Assembly (NCBI GenBank): GCA_029265715.1
Contig: JAJUGZ010000020.1
Span: 1 to 50,382 of the forward strand
DNA from: Bacteroidota bacterium
Lineage (GTDB): Bacteria > Bacteroidota > Bacteroidia > Bacteroidales > Prolixibacteraceae
Direction of reading: 5' to 3'
Length of the DNA stretch: 50,382 nucleotides
Each line of letters begins with the position of its first letter. Position 1 is the stretch's first letter. The translations under genes were made by a program, and so were the position numbers. The notes below the pieces were generated by a model. It saw nothing but the letters and a program-made list of their open reading frames with translations. It made no database searches and had not been told where the DNA came from. This document shows positions 26,099 to 30,306 of this stretch, in pieces.

Positions 26099-26149
26099 AA
26101 ACAGACTAACCTGAACCTTTGCGAACGATTTGGGTTAGTCTGTTTTTTT
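26099..26149. terminator. Bidirectional terminator between GH5 and the peptide operon
   Basis: AAACAGACTAACC (26099-26111) pairs with GGGTTAGTCTGTTT (26132-26145), followed by T residues. It ends the GH5 transcript, and on the other strand the five-gene operon whose last stop is at 26209. Confidence 0.85.
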
Positions 26150-26208: not shown

Positions 26209-27477
26209 TTATCCGATTTCTTTGGTAATGGCAATGGCGGCAATGGTTCCGTCGGCGATGGCGGTGGTAATTTGCCGGTACTTTTTGCTGGTTACGTCGC
26301 CAACAGCATAAACACCATCGATGCTGGTCTTTTTATCTTCGTCGGTAACGATATAACCCCATTGGTCTAGTTTCAGTTTGTCTTTAAACAATTCGAGGTT
26401 GGGTTTTAGTCCGATAAAAACAAAAACTCCATCGGTTGTCAGCGTTTTGGTTTCTTTTGTTTTCAGGTCTTCCACATCAACCAGCATTTTATCGCCTTCT
26501 TTCCGGAAAGCGCGTGGCTCGTGCTCGAACAGGAATTTGATTTTCGGATTGGCAAACGCTTTTTCTTGTGCCATTTTGTTAGCCTGGAGTTTATCGAACT
26601 GGTGCACAATGGTGATTTTTGAGGCAAATTTCGAAATGAAATCGGCTTCTTCAATGGCCGAATTGCCTCCGCCAATCACCACTACTTCTTTATCGACAAA
26701 ATATTTGGCGTCGCAGGTTGCACAATACGAAATTCCCTGGCCTTTGTATTCCATTTCGCCGGGGATATGGAGTTTATTGGGCGAAGTTCCGGTGGCAATA
26801 ATGATCCGTTTGGCTTTGATGGTTTCAAGTCCGTCAATGGTAATCTCTTTTTTGTCGAGGTCAACATGGGTTACATCAACCGCAACTTTATAAGTGGTTC
26901 CGCAACGTTTGGTTTGTTCCGACATATAATGCGAGAGCATGTAGCCTGGCTGCGGATCAATGAACCCAGGGTAGTTCGAAACCATGTGGGTTGTCGAAAC
27001 GTTTCCACCAGGCAGGGCAATGTCGACCAGGACGGTATTAATTTTGGCCTGGCACAGGTATAGCCCGGCCGTCAATCCTCCGGGACCGGCCCCCAGAATC
27101 GCAACATCAACCTGGGTTACTGTTGGTTCAACCGCACTGCTGATGGAGTTCACCTTTTCTTTGCCGATAATATGTTTCAGTTCGCGGATGATTTCCGAGC
27201 GTTTGATCCCTCCGTTCAGCCGGGCACAAACTTCTTCGCCGCCCTGGTAAAACAACAAGGTTGGCGATGATTTAATGCCCAGACTTTCGGCCAATTCCCG
27301 ATTGCCCTGGCGGAAGATCTTTACAAATTTGATTTCTTCCCCAAACAGTTTTTCCAGTCCTTCAAGCTTAGGGGCCAATGCTTCGCACGGAGGGCACTCG
27401 GTCGAATAAAAGTCAACCAGAACATTCTCTCCGGATGAAATGATCTGTTCGAATTCTGATGCATTAATTTCTTTCAT
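26209..27477 (-). CDS. Thioredoxin / thioredoxin-reductase-like fusion flavoprotein
   Basis: This 422-residue protein joins two redox modules. Residues 1-105 form a thioredoxin domain with active site Cys28-Pro-Pro-Cys31 (CPPC in place of the classical CGPC). Residues 122-420 form a thioredoxin-reductase-like domain: FAD-binding GAGPGG at 129-134, redox pair CATC (Cys252, Cys255), NADPH-binding GGGNSA at 269-274 and the C-terminal FAD motif YAVGDV. It could pass NAD(P)H electrons through flavin to the reductase disulfide and on to its own thioredoxin domain. It is the last gene of the minus-strand operon, 38 bases after the DUF1847 gene, and probably keeps the operon's cysteine-rich peptide or proteins reduced. 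That partner assignment is inference; a general thioredoxin-system role is the alternative. Confidence 0.9.
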   Translation of the reverse strand: MKEINASEFEQIISSGENVLVDFYSTECPPCEALAPKLEGLEKLFGEEIKFVKIFRQGNRELAESLGIKSSPTLLFYQGGEEVCARLNGGIKRSEIIRELKHIIGKEKVNSISSAVEPTVTQVDVAILGAGPGGLTAGLYLCQAKINTVLVDIALPGGNVSTTHMVSNYPGFIDPQPGYMLSHYMSEQTKRCGTTYKVAVDVTHVDLDKKEITIDGLETIKAKRIIIATGTSPNKLHIPGEMEYKGQGISYCATCDAKYFVDKEVVVIGGGNSAIEEADFISKFASKITIVHQFDKLQANKMAQEKAFANPKIKFLFEHEPRAFRKEGDKMLVDVEDLKTKETKTLTTDGVFVFIGLKPNLELFKDKLKLDQWGYIVTDEDKKTSIDGVYAVGDVTSKKYRQITTAIADGTIAAIAITKEIG

Positions 27478-27515
27478 TGCTATCTGATTTTTGGTTTTTT
27501 GTCTATTCTCTTAAT

Positions 27516-28061
27516 TTACTGTTCAATACATCTAAGCGGGTCATGGTTGAGTACACGGTCTTTTACCACCAATGCGGTGCAGTCGGCTTGTATTTCTCGC
27601 TGGAACAAAATGTCGTGCCCCAAGCACAAGCCCATAGTTAATACGAGATCAACGCGTTCGTGGTTCAGTTGGGCGGCCTGTCCGATAGGGTTGCACGATA
27701 CCGATTGGTATGCGCTGCCAGGTATTACTTCGTTTTGCGGCAATCCGCTAACAGTGCACGAAACGGCCCTGACTTGGAGGCCGTCAGCCCGCAACAGTGA
27801 AACGATTTGTTGTGCCTGCTTTTCCATGCCGTAACAGTATGCCAGTCCCAGTCGTCGGTATCCCATTCGTTTCGAAAATTCAGAAATCTCCTGAAGTCGC
27901 GATAATGTTCCTGCGCGTCCGTTATCGACTAACGAGGCGGCCGCTTTCAGCAATTCAGCTTCTGCGGAATACTTGGCCAGAAGTTCTGTTTTGCTGGAGG
28001 CTGTAGCCGGGCAGGCTTGGTTCTGACGGCAGCTTTTGGTTTGGCAGGCAGTGCAATCCAT
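27516..28061 (-). CDS. DUF1847 cysteine-rich protein
   Basis: This 181-residue protein of the DUF1847 family has no established function. The N-terminus carries four cysteines in MDCTACQTKSCRQNQAC, a likely metal- or cluster-binding site. Conserved blocks follow: GLAYCYGMEKQAQ, VSCTVSGLPQNE, SVSCNPIGQAAQLN and LTMGLCLGHDILF, each with a cysteine. There is no signal peptide, so it is cytoplasmic. The start at 28061 is preferred because it opens on the cysteine cluster and leaves four bases after the radical SAM stop; an upstream ATG at 28088 would overlap that gene by 23 bases. The context points to metal, metalloid or thiol handling. Confidence 0.8.
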   Translation of the reverse strand: MDCTACQTKSCRQNQACPATASSKTELLAKYSAEAELLKAAASLVDNGRAGTLSRLQEISEFSKRMGYRRLGLAYCYGMEKQAQQIVSLLRADGLQVRAVSCTVSGLPQNEVIPGSAYQSVSCNPIGQAAQLNHERVDLVLTMGLCLGHDILFQREIQADCTALVVKDRVLNHDPLRCIEQ

Positions 28062-28065
28062 CGCG

Positions 28066-29367
28066 TTATTCGTTAAAATAATGAGCAATCCCCAATTCGA
28101 GCAGTTCGGTTATCGGCCGGCAATCATGACTGTTTAATGTCCCGTTATAATTTTTTGCCATCGAGGCGCAGCCACCACCGCAAATCAGGCTCAATTCGCA
28201 GGAACGGCATTTCGGGATTGAAAGCACATCGCGGTTCTGCCATTCTTCAATTGCCCCGGTGTACTTTTTAATTTCCGGATAAAAAGTGCCCAGGCTTTCT
28301 CCCTGCTTACCAACCGTAGCGGTACAGGCATAAAAATTCCCGGTAAAATCGAATGCCCACTCGGTTTTTGTACCGGTACAGGCATCAAACAGCGGAGCCG
28401 GAAGTTCTCCCTGCTCGAACAGAAATTTCGAGATGGAAAACGCCGGTTTGTGAAATTCGCCAATGTGCGGGAAGCGTTTCAACAGTTCGTACAAATCTTG
28501 ATAGAGCTCCAGTCTGGAATACAATCTTTGTTGATTGGACTGGCACTCGTGCAATTCGTAGTTGCGGCCTAGTTGGGTCTTGAAAAGGGGAGAAGCTGTC
28601 CACCCTTTATCGATTGCAAATTGGGCCAGATCGGGCAAATTGCCGATATTTTCGCGGTCGACAACCATCCGGAGATTGACCGGTATACGGTTGGCCAATA
28701 GGTGGTCGATACCTTCAACAATCCGGTCGAATGTCGGGGCTCCGCCTTTCAGGAAACGCCTGCGGTTGTGCATTTCGCGTGTCCCGTCGAGTGTCACTTG
28801 TATTTCGCGGATCAACCCTTTTTTTAGGATATCGATGTAATCGGCCAGATGGTATGCATTGGTTACAGCAGCAATTTCAATTCCGGCCAACGAAGCTTTT
28901 TCGATGATATACGCGATATGTTCTTTGTGTTTGGGTGCATTTAGAAACGGTTCGCCTCCGAAGAGGGTGATATATTTGCGCCGCCCGGCAAACTCGTTCA
29001 GGATATAACTAAAAAACGCATCAATGGTCTGCCGGTTCAGCGACATGGGCTGCTCCTCGTATCCGGCCTGATAGCAATATGAGCAGGAGAAATTGCACGA
29101 GTAGTTGGTAACAAAGAAAATCTGGATTTCGTCTTTTTCGCGGTCATCCAGAAATTTCAGGTACTTTTCGCGAAATAGCTTTTTCTCCCGGGCCGGATCG
29201 GTTACATATCCTTTTTCTGAAAATTCAGGATTCGAAAAATCATTGGTCTGAAGCTGGATCAGTGTTTCGTGATCAATCAGGTCGGCGTTGCCCGACAACG
29301 AATTTACAATGAACCAGTTGTTGGAGTCTTTAACCTTCGAAATAATATTGTATCTGGATAATTGCAT
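28066..29367 (-). CDS. Radical SAM/SPASM-domain peptide maturase candidate
   Basis: This is a 433-residue protein. A short N-terminal region (about 1-45) resembles the leader part of peptide maturases. The radical SAM core starts with CNFSCSYCY (Cys91, Cys95, Cys98), the CX3CX2C motif that binds the catalytic 4Fe-4S cluster, with LFGGEPFL and VTLDGTREMHNRRR after it. The C-terminal SPASM domain has all seven expected cysteines: a CX18C pair containing GX4C (GNFYAC), then CRSCELSLICGGGC (CX2CX5CX3C), and a final cysteine in HDC, ligating auxiliary clusters. SPASM proteins typically modify small peptides or enzymes. A 31-residue cysteine peptide is encoded just upstream, the natural candidate substrate. 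Confidence 0.92.
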   Translation of the reverse strand: MQLSRYNIISKVKDSNNWFIVNSLSGNADLIDHETLIQLQTNDFSNPEFSEKGYVTDPAREKKLFREKYLKFLDDREKDEIQIFFVTNYSCNFSCSYCYQAGYEEQPMSLNRQTIDAFFSYILNEFAGRRKYITLFGGEPFLNAPKHKEHIAYIIEKASLAGIEIAAVTNAYHLADYIDILKKGLIREIQVTLDGTREMHNRRRFLKGGAPTFDRIVEGIDHLLANRIPVNLRMVVDRENIGNLPDLAQFAIDKGWTASPLFKTQLGRNYELHECQSNQQRLYSRLELYQDLYELLKRFPHIGEFHKPAFSISKFLFEQGELPAPLFDACTGTKTEWAFDFTGNFYACTATVGKQGESLGTFYPEIKKYTGAIEEWQNRDVLSIPKCRSCELSLICGGGCASMAKNYNGTLNSHDCRPITELLELGIAHYFNE

Positions 29368-29382
29368 GGTAAAACCTGTTTA

Positions 29383-29399
29383 TTCCTCCAGAGGAGGAA
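29383..29399 (-). repeat. Small hairpin upstream of the radical SAM gene
   Basis: TTCCTCC and GGAGGAA form a 7-bp stem with a 3-nt loop, 15 bases before the radical SAM start codon. The GGAGG arm looks like a Shine-Dalgarno but is too far from the start to act as one. The CCTCC/GGAGG motif recurs in the next hairpin, as in intergenic repeats common in Bacteroidota. Confidence 0.5.
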
Positions 29400-29437
29400 G
29401 GCAAAAGCGATAAAAATCACATGTGGTAAATGAAACA

Positions 29438-29474
29438 CCTCCCCGGCCTCCTCTTTCGGAGGAGTTTGGGGAGG
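29438..29474 (-). repeat. Two-tier CCTCC/GGAGG hairpin between peptide and maturase genes
   Basis: CCTCCCC (29438-29444) pairs with GGGGAGG (29468-29474), and inside it CTCCTC (29448-29453) pairs with GAGGAG (29459-29464). No T run follows on the minus strand, so it is more likely an mRNA-processing or stabilising element, or a REP-like intergenic repeat, than a full terminator. Confidence 0.6.
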
Positions 29475-29477
29475 CTT

Positions 29478-29504
29478 CCGGATGCCTTTAGTCGTGGCAT
29501 CCGG
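29478..29504 (-). promoter_or_regulatory. Perfect 9-bp inverted repeat over the end of the peptide gene
   Basis: CCGGATGCC (29478-29486) and GGCATCCGG (29496-29504) pair perfectly around nine bases that contain the last codons and the stop codon of the cysteine peptide. With the hairpin at 29438-29474 it makes a tandem stem-loop at the 3' end of the peptide coding sequence, able to protect an abundant short peptide mRNA. Confidence 0.6.
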
Positions 29505-29583
29505 CAATGATTTGAGATTGTTTGGCACAGCATTGTGCCTGTTTAACCTTTCCCTTCTGATCTTTCTTTACGAGACTTTTCAT
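29488..29583 (-). CDS. 31-residue cysteine peptide, candidate RiPP precursor
   Basis: This short gene runs from ATG at 29583-29581 to TAA at 29490-29488. The product begins MKSLVKKDQKGKVKQ, a basic leader-like half, and then carries Cys18-Cys19 and Cys29, ending AGCHD. It is 50 bases after the methyltransferase stop and 120 bases before the radical SAM start, on the same strand. Position, size, basic N-terminus and a short cysteine-containing C-terminal core are what is expected of a substrate for the neighbouring SPASM protein. I do not recognise a named peptide family. The start has only an A-rich upstream tract, normal for Bacteroidota. That it is translated is inference from context; hairpins at its 3' end suggest a stabilised message. 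Confidence 0.65.
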   Translation of the reverse strand: MKSLVKKDQKGKVKQAQCCAKQSQIIAGCHD

Positions 29584-29633
29584 TTTTTTTAATTGGTATT
29601 GATTAAACACATATTTGGCGCTGAACTGACCAA

Positions 29634-30278
29634 TCAGCAACAGCAGCTAAATTCATCTTTGATCCCGGTGATGGTGAAGCTCGAAACTTCGATTTCACCC
29701 TTCGGATACGGGTTACTTTCTTCCAGGATGCGGATTTCCTTGAACCCAACCTGCCGGATAATTTTCAAATATTCGTTTTTTGTAATGGCACCGGCCCAAC
29801 ATTCCGACACGGCAACCGGGTCGTTGGCATATTCTTCCGGAACCGGGAATCTCGAATAAATATCGCTAATTACAAAACGACCGCCGTTTTTTAATAGTCT
29901 AAAAATCTCCTGCCACACTCTCAGTTTGTTTGAAACATGGTTCAACGTACAGTTCGAAACAATCAGGTTGGCAATTTCATCTTCGAGTGGGATATGTTCC
30001 AGGTCTGCCTGGATAAATTTTACATTATCAACACCCATTTTGGCGGCTGTTGTTTCTGCTTTCCGGATCATTTCGGCCGTAACATCTACGCCATAAACAA
30101 ACCCGTTTTCCCCGACGATCTCAGCCAGCCGTAAAACATCGGTCCCACGGCCGCTTCCCAGGTCAATACAAACTTCATTTAACCGGGCTTCACTTTTATC
30201 TACTGCTCCACCACACGAAAGGCAGCAGGTTTCCTGAGCTAAAGCGCTATATCTTCCAACTATTTCTTTGGTGTCCAT
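29634..30278 (-). CDS. ArsM-like SAM-dependent methyltransferase with cysteine tail
   Basis: This is a 214-residue class I methyltransferase. The SAM-binding motif is DLGSGRG at 39-45, with acidic Asp65 in YGVDVT. The sequence around it resembles arsenite methyltransferases: an early cysteine cluster (Cys18, Cys19, Cys22 in TCCLSCGG), VSNCTLNHVSNK with Cys110, a DPVAVSECWAGAI block with Cys160 at the place of an arsenic-binding cysteine in ArsM, and the EYLKIIRQVGFKEI helix. Unusually it ends FSCCC. The C-terminal ArsM cysteine block is otherwise not obvious, so the true acceptor may be arsenic, another metalloid, or a thiol of the neighbouring peptide. It is first in the five-gene minus-strand operon behind a good -7 element and palindrome. 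Confidence 0.85.
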   Translation of the reverse strand: MDTKEIVGRYSALAQETCCLSCGGAVDKSEARLNEVCIDLGSGRGTDVLRLAEIVGENGFVYGVDVTAEMIRKAETTAAKMGVDNVKFIQADLEHIPLEDEIANLIVSNCTLNHVSNKLRVWQEIFRLLKNGGRFVISDIYSRFPVPEEYANDPVAVSECWAGAITKNEYLKIIRQVGFKEIRILEESNPYPKGEIEVSSFTITGIKDEFSCCC

Positions 30279-30298: not shown

Positions 30299-30306
30299 CA
30301 AATATA
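30299..30306 (-). promoter_or_regulatory. -7 promoter element of the methyltransferase-peptide operon
   Basis: On the minus strand this reads TATATTTG, a perfect match to TAnnTTTG, 20 bases before the methyltransferase ATG. No clear TTTG at -33; that region is filled by an AT-rich palindrome. Confidence 0.6.

Follow-up and report, generated by a model that had tools for sequence, protein, structure and literature searches.

A predicted peptide-modification cassette combining a conserved cysteine micropeptide, a radical S-adenosylmethionine/SPASM protein, an ArsM-type methyltransferase and a thioredoxin–thioredoxin reductase fusion

Introduction

The peptide maturase CteB carries an N-terminal RRE domain and a C-terminal SPASM domain, and its product contains a thioether bond, as stated in a passage of PMC8326336. 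For the arsenic methyltransferase CmArsM, part of PMC3877260 reports Cys72, Cys174 and Cys224 as the As-binding sites and describes a C72A variant that is active on methylarsenite, not on arsenite. A thioredoxin reductase gene of ars clusters, arsT, is named in part of PMC12607644. In the present work, these systems are compared with a locus found in a 50,382-nucleotide stretch of DNA (the window; positions 1 to 50,382 of contig JAJUGZ010000020.1, assembly GCA_029265715.1) from a Bacteroidota bacterium of the Prolixibacteraceae, the genome of which is 4.2 Mb long and 99.9% complete. The locus encodes an ArsM-type S-adenosylmethionine (SAM) methyltransferase (MT), a 31-residue cysteine-containing peptide, a predicted radical SAM/SPASM peptide maturase (rSAM), a DUF1847 protein and a fusion of thioredoxin with thioredoxin reductase (Trx-TrxR). 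It is most likely an undescribed cassette of the type that makes ribosomally synthesized and post-translationally modified peptides (RiPPs), in this case an intracellular thiol peptide.

Results and Discussion

The Precursor Peptide

All five genes lie on the minus strand, in the order MT (29634–30278; 214 aa, a short form), peptide (29488–29583; 31 aa plus stop, MKSLVKKDQKGKVKQ-AQCCAKQSQIIAGCHD), rSAM (28066–29367; 433 aa), DUF1847 (27516–28061; 181 aa) and Trx-TrxR (26209–27477; 422 aa), with intergenic gaps of 50, 120, 4 and 38 bases. A first-pass annotation of the window had proposed this one-strand arrangement, and its family assignments were recovered as well (Methyltransf_31, Radical_SAM, PF08901 for DUF1847, and Thioredoxin plus Pyr_redox_2). 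It had also noted that the cysteine micropeptide has the size and position of a RiPP substrate; a conserved peptide frame upstream of the rSAM gene is supported by the presence of such a peptide in 75 of 80 loci and by the pattern of codon changes. These 80 named loci are the best ones kept from a scan of one genome per species.

In the 19 loci closest to the window, the 16 codons of the peptide core, compared pairwise (2736 codon comparisons), differed 0 times at the first position, 0 times at the second and 448 times at the third. These loci (L001–L019) all belong to the genus of the window, with an rSAM identity of at least 77%; the search pattern fixed the core protein, yet all 19 matched and none was dropped. 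Over the same loci, the ungapped identity was 90% in the peptide open reading frame (ORF), compared with 43% in the 60 bases before it and 32% in the 60 bases after it. Because the core differences sit at third codon positions while the flanks are unconserved, the sequence comparison identifies the peptide as a true gene and not a chance ORF.

Among 111 distinct peptides, the core residues A1, C3, C4, K6, G13, C14, H15 and D16 were present in 111/111 and Q2 in 110/111, position 8 was S or T, the core was 16 residues long, and the stop codon followed D16 immediately. This set came from 154 loci with script-called starts, some of them the same genome fetched twice, and its search pattern fixed C, C, K, S/T, G, C, H and D; a looser pattern (CC...GC near the stop, within 3 kb of rSAM) returned peptides of the same form in the 75 of 80 loci mentioned above. 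The divergent peptide of one genome (G471, locus L134), which ends in ADGCHD and is encoded about 2 kb from rSAM on the opposite strand, was left out. The peptides share a leader-plus-core layout, with an N-terminal MKSLxKK (mostly MKSL[IV]KK), a linker that varies in length and sequence, and the C-terminal core, in a total of mostly 30–52 aa; a few shorter calls probably have wrong starts. In the window, residues 1–15 (29539–29583, minus strand) form the part that, from a peptide alignment and the 111 distinct peptides, would act as the leader, and residues 16–31 (29491–29538, minus strand), directly before the stop, form the core AQCCAKxSxxxxGCHD that was delimited by the alignments and the codon comparison. 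The three core cysteines, at positions 3, 4 and 14, occur in each of the 111 peptides, and in some of them the linker adds one or two. The linkers of L139, L142, L144–L146, L148, L102, L107, L130 and L155 hold a second cysteine cluster (CC or CGC), and these peptides may be two-core or extended variants.

The mean pairwise difference over 3321 pairs was 0.20 for the core, 0.44 for the whole rSAM and 0.42 for the whole MT, a rough comparison because the core is a selected part. The core is almost fixed while rSAM drifts to 35–43% identity across several phyla, suggesting one conserved chemical product, a description of which was not found in the sources searched. The window peptide matched no NCBIfam or Pfam family at E ≤ 1. 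When five other peptides were scanned against NCBIfam at E ≤ 10, three gave no match and two gave weak ones well below the cut-offs, to TIGR00251 at E 0.078 and to an ArsD-related vicinal-cysteine family at E 0.29.

Placed immediately ahead of an enzyme gene, a short ORF that contains a CC pair could also be a cysteine-responsive leader peptide, that is, a translated attenuator of the rSAM gene which yields no product of its own. The conserved residues include non-cysteine positions and the exact C-terminus, and the peptide gene is also found away from rSAM (L049, L051, L061, L075 and L091) or on the opposite strand. On these grounds and on the codon pattern, both the chance ORF and the attenuator were rejected, the latter being exceedingly improbable.

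The Predicted Maturase

The radical SAM motif CX3CX2C (residues 91, 95 and 98) and seven cysteines at residues 330–416, which were taken as SPASM, are intact in 68/68 aligned rSAM sequences (68 of 96 representatives of 145 sequences). The AlphaFold2 model, with a pLDDT of 93.3, contains three strands followed by three helices at residues 7–78, which is the order of elements in the RRE domain. Therefore, residues 1–80 (29128–29367, minus strand) are interpreted as a putative RRE-like domain from the modelled fold; no Pfam RRE match was obtained for rSAM. CteB was the best match of this protein both in the Foldseek search of the model (5wgg; 460 alignment columns, TM-score of 0.66, 1.6e-17) and among the sequences of solved structures (2.7e-17).

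Of the NCBIfam models, CefB (NF038107) was the closest, with a full-length match of 155 bits against a cut-off of 600, while TIGR03974 gave 83.5 bits (cut-off of 425) and the MftC-type TIGR03962 gave 53 bits (cut-off of 265). Membership of rSAM in the CefAB, SCIFF, mycofactocin, TIGR04463 or PapB groups was rejected, as the scores are far under the cut-offs.

Distribution and Inheritance of the Core Genes

Of the 80 loci, 75 hold the peptide (72 of them within 240 nt of rSAM), 70 hold MT, all 80 the thioredoxin part, 78 the reductase part and 26 DUF1847. Both loci without the reductase part end at or near a contig end, and several of the ten without MT end at a contig edge 0.8–2.7 kb upstream of rSAM. 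Three of the peptide-less loci (L049, L051 and L061) have an MT-peptide pair together elsewhere in the genome, and in the other two (L046 of G1207 and L108 of G1206) the contig ends or rSAM is incomplete at that place. The first-pass annotation had expected five families to co-occur. MT, the peptide, rSAM and Trx-TrxR do travel together and constitute the core of the cassette, whereas DUF1847, which was found in only 26 loci and at differing places, is optional, so that a five-gene unit was rejected. For the four core genes, neither the lack of a conserved peptide in related loci nor a rarity of the genes as neighbors was observed, the two outcomes which that annotation had named as contradicting it. 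These sequence comparisons give good genomic support for a RiPP-type cassette built on a four-gene core.

Phylum names were taken from record titles, which among the 80 loci include Bacteroidales, Prolixibacteraceae, Spirochaetales, Fibrobacteres and Ignavibacteria; the closest relatives carry the title Prolixibacteraceae or Bacteroidota bacterium. Among 61 genomes of relatives, 26 had a close rSAM (E ≤ 1.2e-174), namely the window's own genome, 21/22 of its genus, 1/14 of the rest of the family and 3/24 of the rest of the order. The peptide ORF lies upstream of rSAM in 25 of these 26 genomes, the exception being L020 (on the same contig as L046), where the first 95 residues of rSAM are missing, at a distance of about 0.5 kb from a contig end.

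With the rSAM profile, matches were obtained in 8/395 Bacteroidota genomes at E ≤ 1e-60 (six above 640 bits), in 36/296 genomes of the phylum of a Spirochaetales genome at E ≤ 1e-30, in 5/150 of the phylum of a Fibrobacteres genome, in 8/198 of the phylum of the L098 genome and in 10/149 of the class of an Ignavibacteria-titled genome, the last two samples partly repeating genomes of the Bacteroidota sample. The Spirochaetales phylum includes a divergent group whose rSAM is 35–43% identical to that of the window and whose peptide still ends in AQCC[AST]Kx[ST]xxx[AS]GCHD or close to it. The peptide adjoins rSAM in 28 of the 30 loci opened in this phylum; of the other two, L150 is cut by the contig, and L134 has its peptide on the opposite strand, as described above. 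In the Fibrobacteres phylum, the peptide is present in 4/5 loci; the fifth, L153 of G793, has an rSAM 49% identical, an adjacent MarR-type gene and, in the genome, only a longer ArsM-like protein. Relatives of rSAM below about 240 bits (L027–L030, L116, L117, L159–L162, L164 and L166–L170) showed no peptide or MT in flanks of up to about 1.5 kb and mark the limit of the system within the loci covered.

Inheritance was analyzed in 82 of the 95 loci holding rSAM, MT and TrxR, after removal of identical rSAM sequences. The distances of the three proteins correlate (r of 0.89, 0.81 and 0.72, with no baseline behind these correlations), and the 22 Spirochaetota members fall into five separate clades of the midpoint-rooted rSAM tree. 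Because of both observations, the cassette has probably moved between phyla as a unit.

The Methyltransferase and Its Accessory Proteins

MT matches Methyltransf_31 (4.4e-35) and reaches 183 bits with the arsenite methyltransferase model PRK11873/NF008823, the cut-off of which is 263. Arsenic methyltransferases are its best match among solved structures. Residues C22, C110 and C160 align to Cys72, Cys174 and Cys224 of chain 4kw7, which we take to be CmArsM, and this triad is retained in 48/48 aligned MTs (48 of 83 representatives of 130 sequences), in agreement with the ArsM-like identity given in the first-pass annotation; an extra pair, C18 and C19, is present in 37 and 38 of them, respectively. 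All four genomes with a cassette-type MT among the seven searched also carry separate longer ArsM-like frames.

In the fusion protein, the N-terminal thioredoxin motif is CPPC in 90/99 distinct sequences, as in the window, and CAPC in 9/99. The C-terminal reductase site YCATC, present as CATC in the window protein, is kept in 97/99; Pyr_redox_2 scores above its cut-off, and the thioredoxin reductase model TIGR01292 narrowly under it (320.8 bits against 343.45). ArsM enzymes need thiol reductants of the thioredoxin/reductase kind, so the pairing of MT with Trx-TrxR makes chemical sense. A separate thioredoxin-like gene lies between MT and the peptide in a Bacteroidales group (L024, L058, L059, L062, L074, L088, L089, L104 and others), and another just before rSAM in L051.

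An alternative is that an unmodified three-cysteine peptide binds the metalloid and hands As(III) to MT, with rSAM acting on the methylated arsenical, as ArsS reportedly does, and not on the peptide. Three invariant cysteines would suit trigonal As(III), and MT and the peptide stand together away from rSAM in three genomes. However, the peptide is no nearer to MT than to rSAM: gaps of less than 100 nt separate peptide and MT in 36/70 loci and peptide and rSAM in 41/75, about equal closeness, and in L066 and L081 MT is 2.8–3 kb away. The idea that MT and the peptide form the tightest pair was rejected on these counts. Furthermore, rSAM is of the RiPP-maturase type, with the putative RRE-like domain and the SPASM-type cysteines, and more residues (A, K, S, G, H and D) are conserved than metal binding would require. 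Combined, these points make a role as an unmodified binding peptide quite improbable.

The accessory DUF1847 protein matches PF08901 with 119.8 bits (cut-off of 25; 1.1e-34), and C76, C102, C123, C146 and H149 are invariant in 18 aligned sequences. Its start was set at the ATG at 28061, the TTG at 28088 offered by the ORF finder being judged too early. A fold search with its model gave no match at E ≤ 0.001, and the weak matches, including the Fe-S enzyme Dph2, were not used; the term DUF1847 was not found in the open-licence literature of PubMed Central.

Genomic Context

In the Spirochaetales phylum, acr3 was counted at E ≤ 1e-60 in 23/34 cassette-positive and 86/262 cassette-negative genomes (odds ratio of 4.3, p = 1.2e-4, kinship uncorrected); one positive, G678, holds it only as fragments under the cut-off. 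In the same genomes, the control nifH (over cut-off) was found in 4/34 and 24/262, respectively (odds ratio of 1.3, p = 0.54), or in 5/34 and 36/262 at E ≤ 1e-60. Two of the 36 rSAM matches (G608 and G725; E 1e-33 to 1e-37) were counted as cassette-negative in this test. In the window's own order, acr3 was present in 24/26 cassette-positive versus 20/35 cassette-negative genomes (p = 0.003), a sample dominated by one genus. With kinship uncorrected, the acr3 association supports a link to metalloids without proving it.

Genes resembling acr3, arsM and arsC stand beside the cassette in 3/125 stretches (L055, L192 and L227), whereas 0.27 or 0.54 occurrences of acr3 would be expected on the assumption of one or two acr3 genes per 4.2 Mb. 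Among the 125 stretches are repeats of some genomes, L193, which has no peptide, and three MT-peptide stretches lacking rSAM. The arsenic link, built on the MT active site, the co-occurrence with acr3 and these three neighboring ars gene groups, is circumstantial. In a spirochaete (L192: 2352–6443 and 8910–10385), the cassette is found next to arsR-arsM-acr3-arsC-like genes, and a trio of CcdA-like, thioredoxin-lipoprotein and ArsR-type genes lies on both sides (named by eye, except acr3 and arsM, which were found by search).

The neighbors recurring in the 80 loci include a small membrane protein with cysteines in 22 loci, DUF302 in 12 and flavoproteins resembling sulfide-quinone reductase in 6, and the scan of one or two members gave each group its name. 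Rhodanese and Sulf_transp proteins occurred in single loci among those examined. The DUF302, flavoprotein, rhodanese and Sulf_transp neighbors suggest sulfur or redox physiology. Other neighbors, named by eye, are a zinc-ribbon-like protein of about 150 aa in 13 loci, a TonB-type outer-membrane protein in 12 and a Crp-like regulator in 9, and some of the recurring neighbors are plain synteny within one genus. A MarR-type gene with a cysteine near the N-terminus of its product adjoins MT or rSAM in about ten Spirochaetota/Fibrobacteres stretches. The small membrane protein, of about 80 aa with conserved GC/C motifs (L083: 311–553; 22 loci), is often encoded just upstream of MT, and for its scanned members no confident match was obtained in Pfam or NCBIfam.

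A secreted signal or bacteriocin would be in keeping with the fact that radical SAM maturases often serve such peptides, and the reference list of PMC8326336 includes work on SCIFF-derived peptides in quorum sensing. In the neighbor survey, no transporter, protease or immunity gene was seen to recur, and the core hardly varies across phyla, contrary to the diversification of an arms race. We regard a secreted product as very improbable.

The absence of a recurring exporter or immunity gene agrees with a redox cofactor of RiPP origin like pyrroloquinoline quinone or mycofactocin, for which the core would be trimmed to a small cofactor, MT would methylate the peptide, Trx-TrxR would recycle the cofactor, and metalloids would be uninvolved. 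The near-invariance of the core across phyla (0.20 versus 0.44 and 0.42 in the rough comparison above) and the presence of a reductase dedicated to the set (thioredoxin part in all 80 loci, reductase part in 78) also speak for it. On the other hand, neither a peptidase nor an enzyme that would use a cofactor was seen repeatedly near the cassette, MT carries the triad of a metalloid enzyme, and acr3 is associated. A redox cofactor is the strongest of the alternatives, and we hold it to be unlikely.

Proposed Mechanism

The sequences show the gene set, a coding peptide, its conservation, joint inheritance and intact catalytic residues; beyond these, we infer a scheme that extends from the modification of the peptide and the bonds formed to the methylation target of MT and the role in the cell. 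The 31-residue peptide would be the substrate, the N-terminal MKSLxKK of which would be read by the RRE-like domain of rSAM. The SPASM enzyme would then modify the core AQCCAKxSxxxxGCHD, most likely by a cysteine-linked crosslink of the thioether type. MT may act on a thiol-bound soft element, with arsenic as the leading candidate, or on a peptide thiol, and the Trx-TrxR fusion would use NADPH to re-reduce the thiols of enzyme and peptide. The product is most likely retained in the cell, where it would serve as a thiol peptide in the handling of metalloids or reactive thiols.

Several observations weigh against this scheme. MT scores under the ArsM cut-off and is without the N-terminal region typical of ArsM; 122 of the 125 stretches are without acr3, which in the genome of the window lies on another contig; and the acr3 association is, as stated, uncorrected for kinship. 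The recurrent Bacteroidota neighbors point to sulfur as much as to arsenic, and no peptidase or exporter was seen recurring with the cassette in the neighbor survey of loci. In addition, three draft genomes with rSAM, G793 (L153), G1206 (L108) and G1207 (L046), gave no credible peptide and no cassette-type MT.

Taken as a whole, a RiPP-type cassette with an rSAM-modified intracellular thiol peptide for metalloid (arsenic) or reactive-thiol handling has, in our estimate, about an even chance of being correct. Metalloid handling, above all of arsenic, is its leading but unproven function; in our judgement, metalloid or thiol handling ranks first and a redox cofactor second. A more far-reaching version, in which the ribosomal peptide itself carries the metalloid (most likely arsenic) through its three cysteines or an enzyme-built carbon–metalloid bond, would make it an organometalloid RiPP, a conserved intracellular carrier serving as a cofactor or in detoxification in several phyla; we consider this version improbable. 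We know of no system in which RiPP maturation by a radical SAM enzyme meets the thiol-metalloid methylation by ArsM, and the proposed scheme, if true, would join the two. For a clade of short ArsM-like enzymes, the cassette hints at a function, and its precursor is short enough for chemical synthesis.

Flanking Elements

The first-pass annotation had placed the operon behind a good -7 element and closed it with one terminator. The element TATATTTG, matching what we assume to be the Bacteroidota -7 consensus, does exist at 30299–30306 (minus strand), 20 bases before the MT start; the same pattern and spacing occurs twice in the window against 0.68 expected and is not significant alone. The inverted repeat also exists, between convergent genes at 26100–26144 with 12-bp arms (26100–26111 and 26133–26144), but its long T-run is on the plus strand, opposite to the operon, and a terminator scan limited to loops of 3–8 did not flag it, which leaves it a possible terminator of the operon. 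A strong GC-rich hairpin at 29437–29475, between the peptide and rSAM genes, has the core CTCCTCTTTCGGAGGAG at 29448–29464, in a single copy in the window; it could be an attenuator or a processing site. The genes next to the operon, named by eye from their translations, are glycosyl-hydrolase-like (downstream) and esterase-like (upstream), lie on the other strand and look unrelated.

Comparison with Described Systems

No description of the cassette was found in the open-licence literature of PubMed Central, a scope outside which subscription journals fall, and the peptide appears to be undescribed. The general mark of a RiPP system, a precursor encoded beside its maturase, was found in 75/80 loci. 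As in the SCIFF/ranthipeptide system (CteA/CteB, thermocellin), a small cysteine peptide is conserved together with its own SPASM-type radical SAM protein, which has an RRE domain in CteB and a putative one here, and is wide in a clade. In contrast, the cassette peptide has three invariant cysteines in about 31 residues, compared with six in 45 for SCIFF, its core ends in GCHD, it is accompanied by MT and Trx-TrxR, and its rSAM stays under the TIGR03974 cut-off. With SCIFF and mycofactocin the cassette shares a conserved peptide, a maturase of its own and no exporter seen, while its rSAM belongs to neither family by score. CefAB, the Cys-every-fifth RiPP system of NF038107, supplies the NCBIfam model closest to rSAM; nevertheless, the cysteines of the cassette peptide, which occupy core positions 3, 4 and 14, do not recur at every fifth residue, and the score is 155 versus 600 bits.

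ArsTX is a thioredoxin (reductase) gene of ars clusters; the term arsTX was not found in the open-licence papers retrieved for it. Like ArsT and ArsTX, the fusion is a thioredoxin reductase placed with arsenic-type genes, but its thioredoxin is N-terminal of the reductase, and its neighbors are a peptide and a maturase. MT shares with the ArsM enzymes (CmArsM and AS3MT) the SAM methyltransferase type and the As-binding cysteine triad in register, and differs from them in its 214 aa, its shortened N-terminal region and a score under the curated cut-off. Finally, ArsS and ArsL are radical SAM enzymes that reportedly work with ArsM (arsenosugar, arsinothricin), so that a radical SAM protein and ArsM also meet in one pathway there. 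Those enzymes build a small molecule, whereas the cassette combines an RRE-SPASM-type putative maturase with a conserved ribosomal peptide.

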